DNA from: Chaetoderma sp. LZ-2023a
Lineage: Eukaryota; Mollusca; Caudofoveata; Chaetodermatida; Chaetodermatidae
DNA: 64,000 nt
NCBI GenBank assembly: GCA_034401795.1
Contig: CM067366.1
Location: 74,194,518 to 74,258,517, forward strand
Direction: 5' to 3'
Part shown: positions 6,585-61,900 of the stretch, one piece after another
Numbering within the stretch: position 1 is the stretch's first letter
Layout: every line of letters starts with the position of its first letter
Notes under the pieces: generated by a model
Told to the model about the DNA's origin: nothing
What the model saw: the letters and a program-made list of their open reading frames with translations, nothing else
The model's database searches: none
Program-made: the position numbers and the translations under genes

Positions 6585-6812
6585 CACGACATCTTAATTT
6601 TGGAAGTCAGTGACCCCACAACTTGAAATCTGTGAGTCCAAACCTGCAATCTGGAGATCTGAAACGGAAATTTTGGATTCCATGTAGTTTTTCTCATTCA
6701 TGCTAGATTTAGAGAGCACCACGGGCTAATGCCTAACAGCTGTGCATTATGAGGGTCCAATGCCAGATTTTGTGGGTATGTTTGTGCAAATACCTATAAA
6801 ACTAATTAGTAC
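6585..6812. repeat. Interspersed repeat shared with 36395-36650
   Basis: Shares with 36395-36650 a run of conserved blocks: TTTTGGA..GT, TTAGAGAGCACCA, GGGTCC and TGTGGGTATnTTTGTGCAAA, in the same order and orientation. No termini or coding capacity were identified. A third copy at about 13080-13312 is the assembly duplicate. Confidence 0.65.
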
Positions 6813-8111: not shown

Positions 8112-8611
8112 NNNNNNNNNNNNNNNNNNNNNNNNNNNNNNNNNNNNNNNNNNNNNNNNNNNNNNNNNNNNNNNNNNNNNNNNNNNNNNNNNNNNNNNNN
8201 NNNNNNNNNNNNNNNNNNNNNNNNNNNNNNNNNNNNNNNNNNNNNNNNNNNNNNNNNNNNNNNNNNNNNNNNNNNNNNNNNNNNNNNNNNNNNNNNNNNN
8301 NNNNNNNNNNNNNNNNNNNNNNNNNNNNNNNNNNNNNNNNNNNNNNNNNNNNNNNNNNNNNNNNNNNNNNNNNNNNNNNNNNNNNNNNNNNNNNNNNNNN
8401 NNNNNNNNNNNNNNNNNNNNNNNNNNNNNNNNNNNNNNNNNNNNNNNNNNNNNNNNNNNNNNNNNNNNNNNNNNNNNNNNNNNNNNNNNNNNNNNNNNNN
8501 NNNNNNNNNNNNNNNNNNNNNNNNNNNNNNNNNNNNNNNNNNNNNNNNNNNNNNNNNNNNNNNNNNNNNNNNNNNNNNNNNNNNNNNNNNNNNNNNNNNN
8601 NNNNNNNNNNN
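8112..8611. other. Assembly gap, 500 N
   Basis: Exactly 500 N, a fixed-size scaffolding gap rather than a measured distance. Sequence on both sides belongs to the same duplicated block, so the true gap size is probably negative. Confidence 0.97.
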
Positions 8612-22944: not shown

Positions 22945-22983
22945 GTGTCGACGCGGTATTGAACCCTGTGCAAGTAAATAATT

Positions 22984-25900
22984 ATGGATAGAAATGCGGT
23001 AGCGAAATTTGAATGCTATGCCGAACCGGCTACACTAGGGTCAATGTGGAAAAGATGGTTGATGTCATCCGAACTGTACACAGATGGAAAAGGTTTGATC
23101 ATCAATGAAGGTACGAATAATGATACTAAACAACGTCGTCGAGCATTATTACTACATCTAGTTGGAACTGATGTTCAGAACATTTTTGCCACATTAACAA
23201 ATACTGGTAACGCTACAGATTATGCAATGGCAGTAGCAGCATTAAACACATATTTCGTTCCACAAGTAAATACATCATTCGCCCGCCAAACCTTTCATCA
23301 AGTTACACAAAATCTAGACGAAACAGTTCAACAATTTGTCACACGGTTAAGGCAAGCTGGCAAAGACTGTAATTTTGCAGCTGATACAAATAATCAGATT
23401 CGGGATGCGATTCTAAGTAAATGTACGTCGGATTATGTTCGTCGAAAACTGTTAGAACAAGGACAGGACTTAACGCTTGTGCGTTCATTGGAAATAGCTT
23501 CACAATGTGAACTGATTGAGGAACAAATATCCACTCTCTCTTTGGCAAAGAGGGAGAAAAAGGAAACCGAAACTGAAGCCATAAACTTAGTCTTCCAAAA
23601 ACGGGACAAACGTGCAAAAACCAGTAAACCAAAATGGGACAAATCCAAAACAGATAAACATTGTTACAGATGTGGTCTTTCCGATCATTTCGGTCGTGAT
23701 CCAAAATGCCCTGCTCGCGGAAAATTCTGTCATAAATGTTCTGGCCAGGATCATTTCGCAAATCAATGTAAAACGAAAAGTCAGGTAAAACAAAACCACG
23801 TACGTCAAGTCGAAGAACAAAATGACTATGCGTTTGTAATAAATGACAGTTGTTGGCCAGAAAAACTAAAAATTGGAGTCGGTGGCGTAGAACTGGAAAT
23901 GATAGTCGACACAGGTGCCTCGAGTAATATAGTTGACGAAAAGACTTGGGAACATCTTAAATCAAAGAAAATTCAATGTCACTCTCAAGCAGTCACAGGT
24001 GATCGTAAACTATATTCATATGCGTCCAATCAACCATTATCAGTAAAAGGATCTTTCACGTGTAAAACTACAATCTGTAATCAGACTACAAATGCGGAAT
24101 TTCTCGTAATCAGAGGACATGGAACACCACTTCTTGGAAAGGGAACATCAGTTGCGCTTCGTGTACTCAAAATTGGAGTAGATGTTGCAGCAGTGGATGG
24201 CCTTAAAACTATGTTACAAAATCAGTATCCCAAAGTATTCAGTTTAGTGGGTAAGCTAAATACAAAACAAGTTAGTATTCACATTGATTCTGATGTCGAG
24301 CTTGTAGCACAACTGTTAAGACGGATACCGTTCAATCTTCGAGATGCTGTAGAAGCGAAAATAAAAGAACTCTTAGATGCTGATATTATTGAGCCAGTGG
24401 ATGGCCCAACTCCATGGGTTAATCCAGTTGTTATAATCCCTAAGAACAATTCAGAGATCAGGCTTTGTCTGGACATGTGTCGTGCTAACAGAGCTATAAT
24501 TCGAAGTCGGCATGCGATCCCAACAGTCGATGAGTAGCTACAAGGCATGAACAAATCAGTCATGTTCAGCAAGTTGGATTTGAGATGGGGATATCACCAG
24601 CTAGAGTTAACGCCAGAGTCGTGTGCAATAACAACATTTGCGACCCATGTCGGTCTTTATAGGTACAAGAGACTCATTTTTGGTGTGTCATCTGCCAGTG
24701 AACAGTATCAACACGAAATTGCCACTGCATTAGCGGGAATAGCCAGTGTTGAAAATATATCGGATGACATTATCGTACATGCCGCAGATGAGAAAACCCA
24801 AGATGAGCGTGTGCATGCAGTGCTTAAACGGTTAGAAGAGTGTGGACTGACACTAAACCCTGATAAATGTCAATTTAAGATGGATAAACTGGTGCTTATG
24901 GGAATTCTGTTGACAGAAAAAGGTATCGGTCCAACCGAGGAACGTGTAAGCGCAGTAGTCTGAGCCAGAGAGCCAGAAAATGCTTCAGAGATCAAAAGTT
25001 TCCTAGGACTAGTAGGTTATAGCAATCGATTCATCTCTCAGTTGCAACACTCACAAAACCGCTTCGGAGGATAACACGCAAGGACATTCCATGTGAATTT
25101 GGCCCTGAGCAGAGGAAATCCTTCACAGCCCTTAAAGAGAGCCTCGTGAAGGCCGGTAAACTGGCATACTTTGACAAAAACTCACCTACTAAGGTAATTG
25201 CAGATGCGAGTCCAGTGGGACTAGGAGCTGTCCTCGTGCAGGAACAACTCAGTAAAATGGTTCCTATATGTTACGTGAGTCGTGCTTTATCAGACTGTGA
25301 ACAAAGGTACTCCCAAACAGAACGAGAGGCCTTAGCACGTGTATGGGCTTGCGAGAGACTCTATCCTTACATATATGGTAGACGATTCGATTTAGTGACT
25401 GATCATAAACCGTTGGAAGCAATATACGGGCCTTGTTCTAAACCATGTGCGTGTGTGGAGCGCTGGGTCCTGAGTCTCCAACCTTTCAGGTTATCCATAT
25501 TTCGGGGAAGGATAATATCACAGATTCACTTTCACGTCTCCTATGTGTTAAATCATGGCACGATGAACTTGCAAAGGAATCGGAGGAATATGTTCGGTTC
25601 ATAGCCATCAATGCTACGCCTAGAGCGCTAACTACTCATGAAGTCGAAAAAGCTTCAGCGGAAGATGAAGAACTAAAAACTGTCCGTGAAGCCATTGAAA
25701 CAGGACATTTTGAAAAGTGTAAAATCTATGCCCCAATCATGAATGAGCTATGTGTAATCGGATATCTTATACTACGCGATTCACGAATAGTGTTTCCAGC
25801 AGTACTTCGTCCCAGAGCATTATCATTAGCCCATGAATGACACTTAGGAATTGTAGGTACTAAGCAAAACTTGCGTTTGAAAGTCTGGCGGCCCAAAATG

Positions 25901-38157: not shown

Positions 38158-38342
38158 TTATCTGTGTATTTCTGCAACACTTGGTCAATCGAATCTAAGA
38201 GAGAGAATTGTGAAAGATATCGGAGTTTTTGTTTTTGTTCAGTATATTTAGTACTTTCAAAGAGATAGTGTTTATATTTTCTTTGATCATGTCTATGCAA
38301 TGAGACCTATGCCTCGTAACGTACTCTCACCACGTGTCAAAT

Positions 38343-38470
38343 CCAGATAAACAAACACTAATTATAGGATCATCTATAATAAAGAGAATTAACGAAAACG
38401 GCTTGGATACTCGTGTACAAGTTATGTGCTGTAGAGGCGCCCATATACTGGACATTCTGGAGGTCCTATA
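38343..38470 (+). pseudogene. LINE C ORF1, 5' piece (esterase-like)
   Basis: Reads LIIGSSIIKRINENG, DTRVQVMCCRGAHILDILEV, with GxS near the start as in the SGNH hydrolase-like domain of CR1/L2 ORF1 proteins. It is cut by the transposon at 38471 and continues in the same frame from 45200 (one TSD copy removed). An upstream frameshift separates it from its probable N-terminus. Confidence 0.75.
38464..38470. other. 7-bp target-site duplication, left (TCCTATA)
   Basis: Identical to 45193-45199. Keeping one copy joins the two LINE halves in frame. Confidence 0.9.
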
Positions 38471-38795
38471 GTCAGGAGGCACATTGACGAAAATGTGCCT
38501 GGAAAAATCTTTGCTAAACTTTTTGAGTAGAATTTGGAAACTGGTCCAGATGTTTAACAGATAGGTCTGCGATCATAAAAATCATTGTTTCCACCTCTGC
38601 ATTTTTTGTATGGCGGCCATCTTGGATTTCAAAATGGCCGCCTTTCGAAAGTGAATTTTGACTATAACTGTCATTCTAGGCAAGATAGAAGCAAGATTCT
38701 ACTGTTTAATCCCATATATTGGAGGCCTGAGAGTTCAGCATTCATATTTGTTATCAAGTAGGATGGTGACTCTCTTGACACTGTCTTGAATAGAT
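38471..38795 (+). repeat. Left terminal inverted repeat
   Basis: About 220-320 bp related to the reverse complement of the right end. It contains the internal palindrome GGCGGCCAT(13)ATGGCCGCC at about 38613-38643. Confidence 0.85.
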
Positions 38796-38827
38796 AATAA
38801 TAATAAAAAAAAAAATAATAATAAAAA

Positions 38828-39129
38828 AATTTCATAATCGGCGACCATTTTGTATTCCAAGTGGGTCACCATCCTACTGGATAACTAATATGAATACTGA
38901 ACCCCTCGGCCTCCAACTTTATGTCATCATGCTTCTATCTTGTCTAGAAGGTGAGTTACAGTCGAAACTCTGTATCAAACGGCAGTCATCTTGAAATCCA
39001 ATATGGCCGCCATGCCAAAAATGCGTAGGAGAAAACAGTACTTTTTATGACAGCGGATCTACCTGCTAAGCATCTGGGTCAGTTTCTAAGTTCTACTCAA
39101 ATGGTTTAGCAAAAATCTTTGCTGTGGTT
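38828..39129 (-). repeat. Inverted second copy of the left TIR
   Basis: Its reverse complement runs GCTAAACCATTTGAGTAGAA, GGCATGGCGGCCATATTGG, AGACAAGATAGAAGCATGAT and AGTAGGATGGTGAC, following 38500-38770. The terminal GTCAGGAGGCA is missing. The left end can therefore fold into a ~300-bp stem. Confidence 0.8.
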
Positions 39130-39400
39130 TGTCTCGCCTGCGAAGCAGAAAGCGAGACATAGGTATCACTTTTCCGACCGCGATGATGACAACAACGACA
39201 ACAATGTTAAGTCTTTGCATTTAGCTGTGCTTTACTGAATATCTCTCAGAAGTCCTTCATCCGATTTCAACAAAACTTGGATACATGGTTGCCTATAATG
39301 TTCTGAAGGTGCACAATTAATTTGTGGTCAAAATGTCAAAGGTCATGATGACCTTGCTGAAAGTCTTTAGGTTTATCGACAATGAGCGGCATGCGAGACA
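39130..39400 (+). mobile_element. MITE-like insertion inside the transposon
   Basis: Ends TGTCTCGCCTGC and GCATGCGAGACA are inverted repeats. The body is non-coding and contains GGTCAAAATGTCAAAGGTCA. It lies between the left repeats and the transposase frame. Confidence 0.6.
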
Positions 39401-39495
39401 TTTGGTTCCTAGGAACTCTTGTTTAAAATCGAATTACAGTCTTTGAGGATATTTTCATAGTATTTAACTCAGATGTACTATGTTTGTTTTTCAGG

Positions 39496-42400
39496 ATGAA
39501 TGAAAATATGGATACGATTCAAACTGCAACAACGCTTAGCACCAGGGAACGGGTGACTCCCTCTGACATTGAATGGGAAAAATGCTTCATTTGTCAAGAA
39601 ACAAAGTACCCCAAGAAGAACAGTAAACTATCAAAGGGGACACCCGATGGTAGTGCACGTTTACTTGAATGTGCCAGTCAGCGAGAAAAGTTCAATGATA
39701 TTAAATATTTAGATACTCTAGATCGTTTGAAAATAGTGGACCTCAAAGCGTGTGAGAAAGATTCCCTTTGGCATCGATCTTGCTATAGTGACTTCACAAA
39801 CCAGGGACATATAGACCGACTAAAGAAACGATGTCCGGGAGATATTCCTCCAGCGTCCACTGTAGAAGGAAACACTTCAGCTGGCGAAACATCTACCGAA
39901 AGATGTTCGAGAAGATCGGTTGAATCGTCAGTTGACTGGGAAGTGTGTATATTCTGCCAGGCGCACATTGCTGGTGTTAAATTAAATCAGGTTCAAATAC
40001 TGAGAACATCTGCCAGAATACTTAAATGTGCCGAGAATGATAGACTGTTGGGATGCAGATTCACTGGTATACATGACCTGATAGCAGCCGAAGGGAAGTA
40101 CCATCTAAAATGCTATTCCAAGTTTCTGCGAGACCATTCCAGACAAGACAGCAGTGACGACCAGGAAACTAGTCCACATGTGATTTGCTTTGAAAGTGTA
40201 ATGACTGATCTACGTAGAGATATTGCTCGAGGACATGTTTACTCATTAAGAACTATATGGAGCAAGTACACAGATTTGCTCTCTGATTTTGATATAGAAC
40301 CTGACGTGTACAGGAGCAATAAGTTCAAAGAGCGTATTCAAAACCAATTAAGAGACCAAGTGTCATTTGTCCAACCGTTGAATCCTACAGAGTCCCAGTT
40401 GATAATTCCATCAGAATTAGCAGATGTAGCATTACACTCGACAGTAGCAGATCTTCTGGACGGGGAGGCGAGGCAACAAATTAGAACAGACAATATCTCC
40501 AGAGAAGTAGACTACGAGAATGAGATGTTAAGCTGGCTCTTCCGAGTAGCAGTCAAAGTACACAGTGACATTAAACATATAACAGGACATGAATATATCG
40601 GTGGTATTGACGTTGATCATGCTAAGGCAGTCATTCCCGCAAGCTTGTACCTGTTTATTCGGCTTCTATGCGAAGGAGAAATGGCTCTGGAGGAAGACAG
40701 TGAGACGGGAAATCGTGTCAGGGGCAGAATCCTTAGTATCTGCCAAGACATAGTTTACATGGTATCTGATGGCCGAAAGCTTACACCTAAGCATATTGGT
40801 CTGGCTCTAACTGTTCATCAAGCTACCCGATCCAAAGAACTTATTCAGTTGCTCCATGCAGCCGGACATTGTGTGTCTTATGATACAGTTCGTAGAATAG
40901 ACAATTCCATTGCCAATGATACACTTAAAAGCTATCGAGATCATGGGGAAATCTTTATCCCTCGTAACTTCACTCCGTCTAGTAATCTGGGTTATGTTAG
41001 ATTTTCCGACGACAATATTGACATAAATGAGGAGACTCTGAGTGGGATGGGAACATTCCATGCGACCCAGTATGCTGCGTTGAGGAGAAAGGCGCCACAA
41101 GAACCAACTGCCCAGATGCAGATAGAGCTGAGTTCATCTAGGGTACTTGATTTGAAAGTACCATCAGAACTTCATGAGCTTCAAGATGCACACATGAGTA
41201 CGGATAATCCAGAACCAACATTTCAGTTAACAATTCCACATGCTTTCTATGAGCCTGATAAAGAACAAATTAAAAAGGCAATTTAATTGGACATGGCATG
41301 GATACTTTCTCCTCAAGTAAATCCTGATAACCAAGTAATTCTTGGATGGAGTGGATTTAACCAACATATTGTGAAGAATAATCCACCCGAAACTGAGATT
41401 CATCCTCTACCGATAATTAATGCACCAGCCCATGATTTTGACGCTATATGGACAGTTATGAAGAGAACTGAAGCAACGACAAAGCAACTGCAGGAAAAAT
41501 ACACAATTATCACGTTCGATGAACAACTTTACAGTAAGGCCAAGATGTTGCAATGGGCAAAAGCTGACAACTGCGAGGATTTTGTCATTATGCTTGGAGG
41601 TTTCCACACACAAATGAACTTTTCAACAGTAATCGGTCAGTACATGGAAAGTTCAGGACTCACAGACATCTGGGTAAAGAGCGGCATCTATGGAGAGAAT
41701 ACAGCTGAGAATATTCTTAAAGGAAAGATATGGTACAGAGTTATCCGTGCTCATAAGTTGACAGTTGATGCTTTGTGGCGAATTCTCTGGCCTCACTTTA
41801 CTTTATGGGTGGAACAGAATGGCAAAGTCCTGGACGAGCAGCTTACAGAGTTCACTAGTGAAATAGCAGAAGGTTTCATGCAAAATGATAACGACATGAT
41901 TGAAGCATCTCTTGATGGATTTCTGTGTCGAGTAGAACAGGCAACAGCTCTTCTTGAAGAATTTGACAAAGAAAGATGCGACAATGCCACTTTCAAGTAC
42001 TGGAGAACGTACATGCACATGGTGGCAATTCTGCTCAGATTTACACGTGCTATTCGAGATGGTGACTGGTTGCTCTATCTGTCAGCATTTGCCGAGATGT
42101 TGCCATGGTTTGCTGCTTTTGATCATGTAAATTACTTCAGATGGGGTGCTATCTTCTTGGCTGATATGAAACTTCTGCAACATACAGCCCCAGAAGTTTA
42201 CCAAGGATTCCTGAATGGTGACTTTGTGACTAAAGAGACATCTAGTAGGTTTAATCAGATTTCGGATGACCAAGCACTAGAACACGTGAACAGAGTTGGG
42301 AAGATAGCTGGATGTTTGATTGGCATCACATGAACCGATTCAGCAAGAGACCGTTGGTGTCTCACATACAGTGAGAGAGCACGACTATCAGAAAGCACCA

Positions 42401-44256
42401 AGGCAATGTTTGGGATATCAAATGTTGCCGATGAAGATGAAGAGACACAGCACAAGGACTTTGGCCCAAAGCGCATGATAAGAGATGAGACAGATGTAAA
42501 TGAACTGGTTGATTTATTCAAACACTTCAATGTTTTTGATCGTGATTCTCAAGATCTCATTTCAATTACCACTGGTGATGTTGCAGGTGCAGATGTGAAG
42601 AATGATTTACTCTCAGCAGAGAACATTGGGATGGATCTTGTCAATAATTTTGTGGAACATCGATTGATCAGCAAGACGGTAAAGTTTCATGATCGTATCA
42701 CTCAGCGAAAGCTGAAAACTTTTGAAAATATGTACTCAGTAAGTGTCTGTGTTGACAAACAGAGAGCTGTTAGTATTAAGGCTGACCGAGACCTCTTCCG
42801 ACGGGTGATCGTTGCTCTTGAATCAGGGCGCGAAGTTGACATCGATACATTGCTGGAGCATGAGCTGTCTCCTGTACCACTTTCTTTGGCCAATATAGAT
42901 CAGACCCTGAGATATCCAATGAATAAAGCAGACCTTGGTAAAATCTTGGAGCAAGGCCTAGCCGAAAATCAGCCACCAGTCAATCTTGAATCAGTATGTA
43001 CCATTGTTGATGGAATGGCAGTAATTCAATCTCTTGGTAATAAGTCTGAAGAAAAGACATTCGGGGAATGGAGTGATAATTTCCAAAAGGATGTGAATTC
43101 GCAGTTTTCTGAATCCTGTAAAAGGGTTGACATCGTCTTCGACAGGTACCAAGAAATGTCAGTTAAGGAAGGAACTCGCGTCAAGCGGTCTCGTGGTAAG
43201 GGCAAAGGAATCAAATGCATGGTACAAAGCAAAGATCACAAAATTTCATCCTGGGACCGGTTCATCGCACTCGATGAGAATAAAGCAAGCCTTGTGAACT
43301 TCCTTTGTACTGAACTTAGATATACTCACCAGTCAGTAGCTAACAGAGAACTCGTACTCAGTGGTGGATTTACAGACCCAAAGGAAGCTTGGTCATCTAC
43401 TTGTAGGGACACGTCAAACCTCAGTTCAATCCAGGAATAGGCGGATACCCGCATTATATTACATGCACAGAATGCCAAGTCATCAGGATTTAAGCAAGTA
43501 AATGTAATTTGCCGTGACACGGACGTTTTAGTGCTCTTAGTCGCGCACCTGCCTAGACTATGTGAACATGCTTGGATGCAAGCTGGAACTGCCAAACGGA
43601 AACGATACATCCCAATACATAGGATTGTCATAAGTGCTGAAACGCGTATGTCACTTCTCGCTTGCCATGCTATATCCGGATGTGACACGACTAGTCAGTT
43701 TGTAGGCATCAGGAAACAAACAGCTTGGAAGGTCTTACTCATGTGTCCTCAACTTCTTGAACAGCTAGGTGATGACAAAATTCCTACCAATCAAGTACTC
43801 GATGACGCAGAAGCATTTGTATGTAAACTCTATGACACGTCCACGACATCAAGGTCAATACAGGAAATTCGGAGTGCATCATTTCGTGCACAACGAAGCA
43901 TTGACTCTCTACCACCAACACAAGATGCACTACATCAACATATCAGAAGAGCACACTATCAGACTTACATCTGGAAAAGAGCAGTGGAACCTTGCCCATA
44001 TCTACCCCTACCAGAAGACAGTGGGTGGCTTCTAGCACCAGACAAGAACAATTTGATACCGAGACTCCTCACATCAGAACCAGTTTTGGCAGCATGTCTG
44101 GATTTGACAACTTGCGGTTGTTCTGCATCAGAGAGGCGTTGCGCAACACGAAGATGCAAATGCACTAAGTTGAACCTCTCATGTACAAAGGCGTGTGCGT
44201 GTAAATCCATGTGCCGTAATCCCACAGCATTAGATAACCATGATGACGGAATATGA
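39496..44256 (+). pseudogene. Transposase-PIN nuclease-CXC fusion, three in-frame stops
   Basis: One frame of 1586 codons runs without frameshift from ATG 39496, just after an acceptor-like TTTGTTTTTCAG. Only three stops break it: TAA 41284 (codon 597), TGA 42331 (946) and TAG 43438 (1315). N-terminal duplicated metal-binding-like motifs: CFIC at 30 to HRSC at 93, and CIFC at 151 to HLKC at 203. The middle has acidic and His blocks suggestive of a transposase core: DDNIDIN at 505, GGFHTQMNF with H704, and SDDQALEHVNR with E929. An XPG/FEN-like PIN segment follows: ADTRIILHA at 1316, CRDTDVLVLL with D1341 and D1343, SGCDTTS with D1397. The C-terminus (1540-1577) is a CXC-type cysteine cluster. 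Domain names rest on motif memory. Confidence 0.8.
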
Positions 44257-44551
44257 GTGAAACATTCAGAGTCTACCTGTATGATATATCTGCCGCTAAA
44301 TGTTTCAATCAGTACGAGAGTAATTATTTTTTACTAAACTGAATTTATTGCCAATAGTAGGTAGTGTGTAGCCAACTAACTCAGAAATGTGGGAGTGAGC
44401 CCAAATTCCTAGCCATGCTTAGAATACAAGACATCGTCAAAATTAGCATTAACCATCCTGAAATCGTAGATGGTTGCCATTGTAATTGATAAACAATATG
44501 CATATAAGACTCATAATTCCCGACTAGTGTCTTTGTTATAAGTGTCTTCAT

Positions 44552-44699
44552 TGTCTTGTCGTTGTTCGTGCCCGCGGTCTTCGGGGATATAAATAGACAA
44601 GGCGTGAGAAAGAGGTGAGCTGCTTTTTGTTGTCTTGTCATTGTTCGTGCCCGCGGTCTTCGGGGATATAAATAGACAAGGCGTGAGAAAGATGTGAGT
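44552..44699 (+). promoter_or_regulatory. Tandemly duplicated TATA-containing segment
   Basis: A ~70-bp block occurs twice with a 79-bp period. Each copy has TATAAATA (44588-44595 and 44667-44674) after CCGCGGTCTTCGGGGA. Read on the + strand it would fire outward through the right TIR into the LINE. Promoter activity is inferred from motif only. Confidence 0.45.
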
Positions 44700-44749
44700 T
44701 ACTCGCTGTCCTGTCAACTTTTAAAATGTGTGTGCTGTGCTTGGTAAAA

Positions 44750-45192
44750 CTAGGTCCTGAATCACGGCCATATTGAAATCCAAGATTGTCATCAACTTGA
44801 CATGTGGATATAGACCCCAGACCTTTGCTTGCGACATGCTTAGAAGGCGTGATATTGTCAAAACAATGTTCTGAATGGTGGCCATATTGAAATCCAAGTT
44901 GGCCGCCATTATACGATATAAGAAATAGAACCATTGGAATTCTCAAGGGCAAAAATGCTGGTATAGACACCGGAACTATGCTTCTAGCTGTCGTAGAAAC
45001 CGAGATATTGTCAAAACAGTGTTCCATAAGGCGGCCATCTTGAAATCAAAGATGGCCGCCATACCAAAAAAATGTCGACGTGGAAACAGGTCTTTTTACA
45101 ATCAGGGACATATTTTCTGAACACTTGGCTTTGTTTCCACATTCTACTCAAAAAGTTTAGCAAAAAATTTTTTCCCATACCTGCCTCCTGAC
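44750..45192 (-). repeat. Right terminal inverted repeat with internal direct repeats
   Basis: The outer ~220 bp mirror the left end. Inward, a ~145-bp unit (GATATTGTCAAAACAnTGTT, GGCGGCCATnTTGAAATC) is repeated about three times at 44770, 44870 and 45010. Confidence 0.8.
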
Positions 45193-45199
45193 TCCTATA
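45193..45199. other. 7-bp target-site duplication, right (TCCTATA)
   Basis: Identical to 38464-38470 and adjacent to the TIR end TGCCTCCTGAC. Confidence 0.9.
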
Positions 45200-45805
45200 C
45201 GCTATAGACCTCCAGAACTATACCAATATAATAGTGATGGCGGGAACAAACAATCCGGACAGCCCTATCGGTGACGCGCTCAGCGATATGGAGAATTTAG
45301 TGCGTTCCATTCACTCACTGGCACCTCAGTGCAATTTGTATATTTGCCAGCTGTGTCCCCGTGGAGACAATCCTAAGCCGCACGAATTCACCAGGCAATT
45401 CAACAGACATCTGGATGTTCGGGCTCATTTCCTGGACTTCACACTGATTGAATCGGCAGAACTATTCTATTCGCATAGCAGGCCAGGTGTAATAGACAAT
45501 TCTCTGTTTTTTGCAGACAAGCTGCACATCAACGAAAGCGGATCAACCATACTAGTCCATTGTATCAACGAGTACATAAACATTCTGAGAAACTCGGAAT
45601 GTAAATTTTGCGCAGAGCCAAACCATAAGTCGTCAATATGTCGTCACGGTCGGCCTGTTCAGTATTACAAATGTAACGGTTACGGACACAAAGAAAATCG
45701 ATGTCCTGGACACTAATGGTTCGGCCAGGAAGAAGTGCCAACGCTAAGCAAACACTGCAAATTAAATAGTCGTGATGCTACATGGCCAAATTACTTGAAC
45801 TCGGA

Positions 45806-45869
<64 letters not shown>

Positions 45870-46061
45870 TCTGTCTATCGTACACTACCTACTTACAATG
45901 TGTCAATCAGTAACAGATTCGATTTGTTAAATGATATTGCTGATGACGCAATTAGTAATACCGCAATAGAGGATGGCCACACAGTTACTCATTCATCATC
46001 AAATCCTATTGTCTTAGCAACTGCTACTGCTAATTTTTCTGATGCTCAGGACACCGATGGC

Positions 46062-46116
<55 letters not shown>

Positions 46117-46139
46117 TTGCTCATGACACAATGCCGTAA
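45200..46139 (+). pseudogene. LINE C ORF1, 3' piece (esterase end, zinc knuckles, poly-Asn)
   Basis: Continues the esterase-like frame: NYTNIIVMAGTNN, then ADKLHINESGS with the Asp/His pair expected near the end of SGNH hydrolases. CCHC-like knuckles follow (CKFCAEPNHKSSIC and an altered YKCNGYGHKENRC). A TAA at 45714 interrupts the same frame, which resumes through a (AAT)n-encoded poly-Asn tract and NRFDLLND, a motif common in CR1/L2 ORF1 proteins. A ~175-bp segment ending in a second (AAT)n is duplicated at about 45950-46115 and 46135-46295. Confidence 0.75.
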
Positions 46140-46234
46140 TAGAGATTGACCACGCAGTTACTGATTCATCATCAAATCCTATTGTCTTAGTAACTGCTAC
46201 TGCTAATTTTTCTGATGCTGAGGACGCCAATGGC

Positions 46235-46295
<61 letters not shown>

Positions 46296-46318
46296 TAGCG
46301 AATAATAATGATAAGTTT

Positions 46319-47023
46319 ATGGAATACGTTAATACTTTCAGGTATATGGTTCAAGTACATTTCCTTAATTTCATCAATATTATATCATATTGCTTTGTTG
46401 AAGATGAAAATGATATACTCTCACACCGAATTGCTAGGGACCCGCTTGACCAATGGAAATGTAGTCCCAATTTTGTCAAATTAACAAAGCGGTATGATTT
46501 CCCATCATTCAATATAAATACAAAAGGCTTACGCATAGGACATCTACATGTACAACACCTAATGCCCAAAATAAACCAATTGAAAATAATTATGGAAAAA
46601 ACTACAAAGGAAATTGAAATCTTTGGTACAACAGAAACTGTTTTAGGAATTAACATTACAGATAATCAAATAGCTATCAACGGATATAACATGGAAGGAA
46701 AGGATCGGCCAAATCGCGGCGGCGGTGGCATCGTAATTTATATTGAAGAAAATCAGTCCTATTGTAGAAGGCTAGAATTAGAAACAGATGACTTGGAGGC
46801 ATTATGGCTCGAGGTCACGCCCTATAAAACAAAACCTTTCGTGCCTGGTTATATTTATAGACCACCAAATTCACCAGCGAGCTGGATCGATGAATTCGAA
46901 TCTTTGCTTGAGGCGGCCTATTTACATAACACGGATATTGTTTTAAGTGGCGATTTTAACATTTGGTTTCAAGTTACTATGGCAATCATTAATGGATACA
47001 TTTCATCTACAACAACTAATTAA
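46319..47023 (+). pseudogene. LINE C ORF2 endonuclease domain
   Basis: RIGHLHVQHLMPKINQL, FGTTETVLG, GGGIVIYIEE, YRPPNSP and SGDFNIWF follow the order of AP-type endonucleases of LINEs. The usual TET/SET and GDFN signatures are visible. The frame is lost after GDFN, then fragments continue to about 47225 (IEHVYVTDKSKITSVS; the DHLPVF-like catalytic segment lies in another frame). Inactive. Confidence 0.8.
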
Positions 47024-47429
47024 CACGCCCACTAGAATCACAGAAACGACAGCCACCATAATAGAGCATGTATATGTCACCGACAAAAGTAAAATCACTT
47101 CAGTAAGTGTATACCGTATATATAGTAGTCGAGTTAGCCCTAGCAGACCACCTTCCTGTATTTGCTGTGCTGAAAAGCGTCACTCACAAAACTCACACTC
47201 ACCATACTATAAAATACAGATGTAAGAAAACTTTGATAATATTAAATTCCTTACAAATTTATCACAATATAATTGGGAACTGATTAATTTAATTAGTGAC
47301 CCAAATGAAGCTCTTAAAATATGGCATGAAACGTTCCTCACTATTCTCAATAACCACGCCCCTATCATCGAGCGCAGAGTAAAAAAGTATTGTCAACCTG
47401 AATGGATTAACGAGGGTATTTTAAAAGCC

Positions 47430-48662
47430 ATGAAAGATCGCGATTATTTCAAAAAAGTAAAAGATATGGTCAAATACAAAGAGTTTAAAAATAAAGTAAT
47501 GTCCCTAATAGAAAGCTCTAAGCGAAACTATTTCGGTAAACAGCTTGCTGAAAGGAAAAATAATCCTTCTAATATATGGACCATTATGAGAAACATAAAC
47601 CCAAAATCTAGTAAAATGTTATATACTACCGAAGGTAATGACATTAGAGACATAGCGCAACATTGCGAGATGTTCAATAAATATTTTAGTACAGTCGCTG
47701 CAGATCTCGCAAAATTAATAAACGGCCCAAATCACGCGATATCGAATGATCTTAAAATGCATGTTACCAGTAGAGTGTCAAATGAAATCGAGTTTAGAAT
47801 ATCTCTAATAACAGTAGATTACGTTTACAAAGAACTTACAAATTTAAAAACGAATAAGTCATCAGTTACAGCCATTATTAATAAAAGTATAGACGCAGGT
47901 GTATTTCCAACTCTGTGGAAATGCGCTAAAATAAAACGTTTACACAAGTCAGGTAATAAAAGCGAGATCAGTAATTACAGACCAATTTCAATTCTACCAA
48001 TTTTGTCCAAAATCATTGAAAGACACGTCCATAATAATTTATATACATTTCTAAGTACATATAATTTACTATATGAATCTCAGTCCGGCGTCCGGCCAAA
48101 GCATTCTTGCGAAACCGCATTATTAAAATTAATAGAAAAATGGCGATTCGCAGTCGATAATGGCGAGATCGTAGGAGCTATTATGACAGATTTCAGGAAA
48201 GCTTTTGACCTTGTAAATCATGATATACTGATACAAAAATTAGCCATCTATAAATTTGATTCACTTACGCCAAATTGGTTCGCATCGTATTTGGAAGACA
48301 GACAGCAATACGTGTCTATTTCAGACAAGATTTCGGTTTTAGCGGTAACAGTAGGCGTCCCTCAGGGTTCTGTGCCAGGACCTCTGCTATTTATCCTTTA
48401 TGTAAATGACCTACATATGGGCATTAACAGCAATGTAGACTTGTATTGCGATGATACAACTATGCATTGTAACTTTGACAATGTACGAAATATAACTGAA
48501 CAACTGTCTGGGGATATGGCGTCTGTCCAAAACTGGTGTGAAAATAATAAAATGATTATAAATTCTGACAAAACCAAATTATTAATGATATCCACTAAAC
48601 ACAAACTTAATCAGATTAATGATGCAGAAATTAAAATACATATATATATAACGGAGAATTAG
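47430..48662 (+). pseudogene. LINE C reverse transcriptase
   Basis: 410-codon frame with all palm motifs in order: NYRPISILPILSKIIER, QSGVRPKHSCETALL, TDFRKAFDLVNHDIL, GVPQGSVPGPLLFILYVNDL, LYCDDTTMH (YxDD, Cys replacing the usual Ala) and NSDKTKLLMI. The first Met is internal, since similar coding sequence precedes it at 47228-47429. This is the best preserved LINE domain in the window. Premature ends on both sides and the broken endonuclease make the whole element inactive. Confidence 0.88.
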
Positions 48663-57705: not shown

Positions 57706-60850
<3,145 letters not shown>

Positions 60851-60851
60851 C

Positions 60852-61694
60852 CTAGGTGTCATTGATGCGCTTGGGTAAGTTATAGGTGACTCTACCCTCT
60901 TGCCTGTTATGGCGTTTATACATTAGGTAGAGCTGGTTCATATGGAGGCGTGTAATGACTGGCTTGTGGTCATAATTGAGGTCTGTGACTCCATATGAAC
61001 GAGCATCCGGAAGTAGGGGTTTTGCTGCTGTCTTGCATAGTATGAAATCTATTTGGTTGAAGACAGCTGTTGTAGCCTTAGAACCTTTTGGGGCTTTGCG
61101 ATCAGCAATGTGTCCAGTCCATGTTGTCCAGTGACGGCATGGGTGTTTGAAAGCCGTATTTGTGGTAAATAGGCCATTGGAACTAAAGAATGCCACCAGC
61201 GTATCTCCATTTCTGTTGCGTGTGCCCTCTCCATATGACCCCATGCATAAGCCAAGTCCTGAACTTTTGCCCGCAATACAGAGTTTACCCAACTTGTTGT
61301 TGAAATCTCCACACCTGACCAGTTGCCATCTAGCTGGGATAGTAATGACGGAGCTCAGTTCTGCATAGAAGGAATCTAATATTGCTGAATTCTCTTTGGC
61401 TCTTTCCGTAGTTGGCACATATGCATTGACTATGCGACACTTAGTGGTAGTGCACTTTCGAGTTGGTGTAGCCAGGTCGATAAAAGCAACACGATCACTG
61501 ACGTATCCAAAACTAATGACATGGTCCAATACCCTTGGTCCGATTACGAAGCCTAATCCCCGGTGAGTGGCCTGTTTTTGCTCCATGAGTACTAGATTAT
61601 GGCATGTCTGTAGTTGCTGCTCTAAGTGTTTGGCTACCATAGTCTCTTGAATGTATGTAATATCGAGTTTATAGTGTTCACAGTCTACACCCAA
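60852..61694 (-). pseudogene. LINE B endonuclease domain (largely open)
   Basis: 280-codon frame: LDITYIQETM (the QET Mg-binding position), KCRIVNAYVPTTE, CGDFNNKLGKL, NGLFTTNTAFKHPC, WTGHIADRKAPKGSK and YDHKPVITRL in the order of AP-type endonucleases, with catalytic-type E, D/N and D-H residues present. It is better preserved than copy A, where GDFN is mutated. The first Met is arbitrary. Downstream frameshifts still inactivate the element. Confidence 0.82.
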
Positions 61695-61900
61695 GGTTTG
61701 CCTCTTTGATGTTGCAGTCAGACCACGTACATTCCACGTAGCTATCGGAAGCTCCTGGGAAGATTGCGTCGTCCGAGGATGTCGAACACCGTTTCTTGTT
61801 AGAAGATGGTAGACATAGTCAGAGTTGCCTCTGTATGCGGATGTCAGCCCGCAATCCTTGATGACTTAGTTTCCTAACAAATTTGGTACTTACGGAGGAG

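Follow-up and report, generated by a model that had tools for sequence, protein, structure and literature searches.

For DNA transposons of the Academ superfamily, the accessible portion of a 2023 paper gives target-site duplications (TSDs) of 3 or 4 bp for AcademX and of 9 or 10 bp for AcademH and ties the two to the encoded nuclease and helicase (PMC10045372), and bivalves, according to the accessible part of another study, are rich in Academ elements, which average 5565 bp in length (PMC10294476). Here, we analyzed a transposon from the caudofoveate mollusc Chaetoderma sp. LZ-2023a, which lies in a stretch of 64,000 nucleotides (assembly GCA_034401795.1, contig CM067366.1, positions 74,194,518 to 74,258,517 of the forward strand), referred to as the window, and interrupts a long interspersed nuclear element (LINE). 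An earlier inspection of the letters without database searches, the sequence-only reading, had assigned it to an unassigned superfamily because of an apparent 7-bp duplication. We conclude with a probability of roughly 0.87 that it represents a recently mobile Academ-type (AcademX-like) DNA transposon family, of which every copy read is broken. Because the family combines a nuclease with 3-bp duplications, it is filed as Academ-type; it adds a new family to a known kind and is placed by described features and not by comparison with catalogued Academ sequences.

The window copy carries identical 11-bp inverted tips, with GTCAGGAGGCA at 38471 and its inverted counterpart at 45182–45192, as had been read initially, and the letters TCCTATA stand on either side. 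When the element is removed together with one TCCTATA, the first open reading frame (ORF1) of the LINE becomes continuous in frame (GAHILDILEVLYAIDLQNYTNIIVMAGTNN). The claim that the empty site can be read directly was borne out by the LINE copies of the same genome (best 40 of 70 candidates scored, junctions fetched for the 12 best after the window), as the site is uninterrupted in all 12; two of these copies (L055 and L056), which are 56 kb apart and do not differ over the stretch shown, may not be independent. The letters at the empty site are TCCTATA in ten copies and differ by one base in the other two. In 30 order-2 simulations of a 64-kb sequence, an 11-bp inverted tip combined with a 7-bp flank repeat at a distance of 1–15 kb occurred 0.03 times per sequence (1 in 30). 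The window holds two such pairs, of which only that of the transposon has all four letters in its tip, the other tip being of low complexity. A complete DNA transposon inside a LINE is thus supported by the flanks and the empty site, by sister copies, and by the uninterrupted LINE copies. The restored LINE frame proves the insertion and not the TSD length, because the same empty site results from reading a 7-bp (TCCTATA), a 5-bp (CCTAT, tip AGTCAGG), or a 3-bp duplication (CTA; left tip TAGTCAGG, right tip GAGTCAGG). The LINE carrying the transposon extends over about 38300–48662, with a weak GDSL-like ORF1 (the right half matches GDSL lipases under the curated cut-off), a weak endonuclease match, and a LINE reverse transcriptase downstream.

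The TSD length was taken from other copies in the 2.44-Gb assembly (G000), which was searched with window bases 38471–38640. Within the best 40 of 86 candidates scored, 14 left ends matched at 96–100%, including that of the window (the 13 others at 96–98%), and right ends were found among the weaker matches. Thirteen insertions could be paired end to end, the window copy and 12 others, while a left end (L008) and a right end (L022) were partnerless in the list and were excluded from the TSD count. TA precedes GTCAGG in all 14 left ends; after CCTGAC, the window copy has TC, and L022 and the 12 other paired copies have TA. With the element starting at TAGTCAGG, as both tips read in all 12 other paired copies, the TSD is exactly 3 bp in 12/12 and reaches 4 bp in none (ATA, CAT, ATC, TTA, TTA, TGG, AGG, TCA, ATA, CAA, GTA, and TGC); that of the window copy is CTA. 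The sister copies shift each end of the element outwards by two bases. The previously proposed "proven boundaries" were too strong a claim, since the three readings given above leave one and the same empty site. Because the LINE copies read TCCTATA at the site, the host letters are TC before CTA and TA after it. TC-CTA-TA is seen twice although only CTA is duplicated, because the left end brings its own TA and a differing last base makes the right end TC. Of 14 fetched sister stretches, 13 align with the element as far as base 6725 of 6726, the final base being the one that differs in the window copy.

Seven of these 13 stretches align in one piece from base 1. Over up to 2.4 kb, 15 copies deviate by only 0.4–0.8% from the per-column majority, indicating that the family moved recently. 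In the same genome, eight more stretches (L047–L054) matched the terminal inverted repeat (TIR) more weakly, five of them together with a protein match, and the tips of three that were inspected yielded only one weak 3-bp candidate. L047–L053 carry related subterminal repeats, several with outer letters like AGATGCAGATAC, and are probably related families. Inverted repeats of more than 200 bp had been claimed, and the inverted similarity in fact covers a gapped stretch of about 300 bp (76% in 195 aligned columns that start at base 33 and run inwards). The left-end foldback (Table 1) is present in 11 of the 14 fetched stretches, and the alignments of the other three stop short of the left end. 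Inside the left end, the stretch 39130–39430 starts with TGTCTCGCCTGCGAAGCAGAAAGCGAGACA and resembles an independent small repeat; the alignments of full-length sister copies run through it without a break.

Table 1. Coordinates of the transposon and its features, numbered from the first letter of the window
Feature	Position	Strand	Remarks
Whole transposon, corrected ends	38469..45194	+	6726 bp; left tip TAGTCAGGAGGCA, right tip TGCCTCCTGACTC; sister copies end in TA
Left 3-bp TSD, CTA	38466..38468	.	from comparison of paired copies
Right 3-bp TSD, CTA	45195..45197	.	from paired copies; empty site intact in 12/12 LINE copies
Left TIR	38469..38777	+	about 300 bp, gapped
Right TIR	44895..45194	-	about 300 bp, gapped
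Left-end foldback	38503..39120	.	second, head-on occurrence of the outer inverted repeat within the left end; 71% along the stretch
79-bp unit, 1.9 tandem copies	44551..44698	.	right subterminal region
Putative transposase frame	39496..44256	+	1586 codons and final stop; in-frame stops at codons 597, 946, 1315
DUF6589 (PF20231) match	41380..42297	+	Pfam, E 4e-10, second frame piece
D-D-E candidates	D506 41011-41013; D675 41518-41520; E929 42280-42282	+	from conservation; D506 upstream of DUF6589 match
Predicted FEN1/EXO1/XPG-fold nuclease domain	42922..44013	+	residues about 1143-1506
C-terminal cysteine cluster	44113..44220	+	sub-threshold Tesmin/TSO1-like CXC match (E 0.91)

The frame of 1586 codons noted before proved to be real and not intact, as three stops interrupt it, and it is the only frame of more than 135 amino acids within the element. 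DUF6589 was the only Pfam match above the cut-off in the four frame pieces, and searching PDB sequences with the profile of the family returned a single match (E 0.31). In an alignment of 45 rows including the window copy, D675, H704, and E929 are invariant, and all 43 rows with a letter at position 506 carry the aspartate D506. The residue at −3 from H704 is the likewise invariant G701 and hence neither C nor D; we infer the D and E assignments, and the DUF6589 core is probably a DDD/E transposase. An XPG-like nuclease had also been suggested, XPG being what we, like the sequence-only reading, take to be the label of the AcademX nuclease, and a FEN1/EXO1/XPG fold is indeed predicted in the C-terminal half. 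There, D1172, D1216, D1317, D1341, and D1343 are invariant, and E1315 (where the window copy has a stop) and D1397 are each found in 44 of 45 rows.

A search with the whole frame recovered 68 relatives, many of about 1535–1616 amino acids, whose named hosts include corals (Porites, Acropora, Oculina, Pocillopora), the whelk Nucella, and the firefly Aquatica; in sequence databases, the coral, gastropod, and firefly relatives are listed as, for example, "hypothetical protein" or "Tesmin/TSO1-like CXC domain-containing". The window copy belongs, in a tree of the nuclease part, to a group of eight with 100/100 support, together with a Porites evermanni protein (P0079). In viral contigs, none of 47 pattern matches was confirmed with the protein profile and the 23-base TIR pattern gave no match; in genome contigs, 0/3 were confirmed with a single protein and 2/22 with the profile. 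Animal-type transposon sequence also occurs in records titled as a Planctomycetota metagenome-assembled genome (MAG; L001) and as a Bathymodiolus thiotrophic symbiont (L002), which probably reflects eukaryotic contamination; the name of a further protein (P0188) likewise derives from a Sedimenticola MAG. The tips of the distant relative L002, read by eye, are TAGTAGGGTGCCC with an adjoining TTA repeat in the same register.

The boundaries and TSD lengths of other copies had been set in advance as the test of the 7-bp claim, and they disagreed with it. A superfamily making 7-bp duplications would fit the letters TCCTATA, which do flank the window copy on both sides, but such a repeat is found in none of the 12 other paired copies, whose right flanks start with TA, whose tips read TAGTCAGG, and whose TSDs have 3 bp; one differing base at the right tip together with matching host letters accounts for the window copy, so that this proposal has practically no chance of being correct. 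We also consider it very improbable that the TSD is just the TA dinucleotide, with the element starting at GTCAGG and the further 3-bp match incidental: TA does adjoin GTCAGG in 14/14 left ends and stands on the right side of all 12 other paired copies, but this would not account for the 3-bp matches outside it (12/12) and would deprive the window copy, which has TA on its left and TC on its right, of the duplication. Flank matches of 3 or 4 bp were found in 0/12 copies in each of seven other registers tried, and those of 2 bp occurred at register 0 in 12/12 (the TA itself), at register 1 in three, and at registers 6 and 7 in one each. The 5-bp reading was rejected together with the 7-bp one, since 5-bp matches appear in one of the 12 copies at register 1 and in one at register 7, which we took as chance. 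A palindromic target was likewise discarded: the window target CTGGAGGTCCTATACGCTATAGACCTCCAG is nearly palindromic, yet most LINE copies carry the same letters. Palindrome arms, in a simple count that overlooks bulged palindromes like the window target, measured 2–6 bases in the 12 other targets and 5 in that of the window.

With the 3-bp TSD, the objection raised against Academ, namely that it makes 3–4 bp, falls, and the assignment to an unassigned superfamily is not supported. The family could still lie outside Academ, if its DUF6589 transposase, FEN/EXO1-type nuclease, and cysteine cluster defined a separate superfamily that also makes 3-bp TSDs. This would agree with Academ having been compared by description and not by sequence and with DUF6589 not being found in the literature searched, but a nuclease with TSDs of 3–4 bp is the very combination given for AcademX in the accessible portion of the source (PMC10045372), and the other study, in the part at hand, describes an abundance of Academ elements in bivalves, averaging 5565 bp (PMC10294476); we therefore regard it as unlikely. 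The bolder conjecture of a widespread animal superfamily distinct from catalogued Academ, characterized by this domain combination, TAG tips, and 3-bp TSDs and using the nuclease for an obligatory strand-processing step, seems to us quite unlikely. Several observations weigh against the Academ-type placement. It follows published descriptions and not membership by sequence or tree, and the DDD/E reading of the DUF6589 core is drawn from conserved residues and not from a predicted core fold. By tblastn, an uninterrupted protein frame is lacking in the window and in all 14 fetched stretches, of which some are partial. The 5-bp match at register 1 fits the window copy as well as one other, and that at register 7 one other. 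The 3-bp repeat of L002 was seen in one copy only and could be chance.

If the Academ-type reading holds, one long protein would act on the long inverted ends, presumably by binding them. Its DUF6589 core would cut at TAGTCAGG by DDD/E chemistry and join the ends to the target with a 3-bp stagger in a cut-and-paste movement, and filling in the stagger would yield the 3-bp duplication. The same protein would most likely use its FEN1/EXO1-like domain to trim or cut a strand, either at the ends or at the gap. This young family, with its many near-identical copies, clean empty sites, and fusion of a transposase frame to a predicted FEN/EXO1-fold nuclease, appears well suited for probing the role of the nuclease. 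The case also illustrates that a TSD length should not be taken from a single insertion, as the claimed new superfamily dissolves on reading the other copies.

Elsewhere in the window, a Tc1/mariner-like transposase (58257–59288, minus strand; HTH_Tnp_Tc3_2 and DDE_3 matches) lies within 57928–59595 between inverted tips that contain CACCTGTGCA, set in a TATATA context. Remains of a long terminal repeat retrotransposon with gag, aspartyl protease, and RNase H matches occupy 22978–25604, an endonuclease-like frame with a weak Exo_endo_phos_2 match at 60852–61865 (minus strand) possibly belongs to a second LINE, and 8112–8611 is a run of 500 N.

Among known systems, Galileo makes TSDs of 7 bp, the P superfamily of 7–8 bp, and Dada of 6–7 bp. 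Together with hAT7, these were considered only because of the 7-bp reading, and all were rejected, as a 3-bp TSD stands against their 6–8 bp. Galileo resembles the element in its long, internally repetitive, Foldback-like inverted ends, as far as described in the accessible part of the source (PMC3573991), but the 7-bp TSD of the element is not real and no P-type match was found in Pfam. hAT7, a fungal hAT with 7-bp duplications according to the portion of the report at hand (PMC12730594), shares only the apparent 7-bp repeat and differs by the 3-bp TSD of the element, which also gave no hAT match in Pfam. The EXO1/FEN1/XPG nucleases share the predicted fold of residues about 1143–1506 and the conserved acidic residues, but the known ones are host repair enzymes, whereas the domain of the element is fused to the transposase core and is about 14% identical to EXO1 over the matched part. 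The literature searched contained no mention of DUF6589 and nothing joining Academ with XPG and a transposase. AcademH bears the same superfamily name in the literature but is distinguished, in the accessible portion of the source, by a helicase and a TSD of 9–10 bp (PMC10045372), compared with 3 bp here; no helicase was matched by Pfam in the four frame pieces (E up to 1), and there is no other frame of more than 135 amino acids. AcademX, compared by description only, differs in none of the tested features: it is a DNA transposon of similar size that encodes a nuclease, as this element does, and the 3-bp TSD of the 12 other copies, and of the window copy with corrected ends, lies within the 3–4 bp given in the parts of the sources at hand (PMC10045372, PMC10294476).
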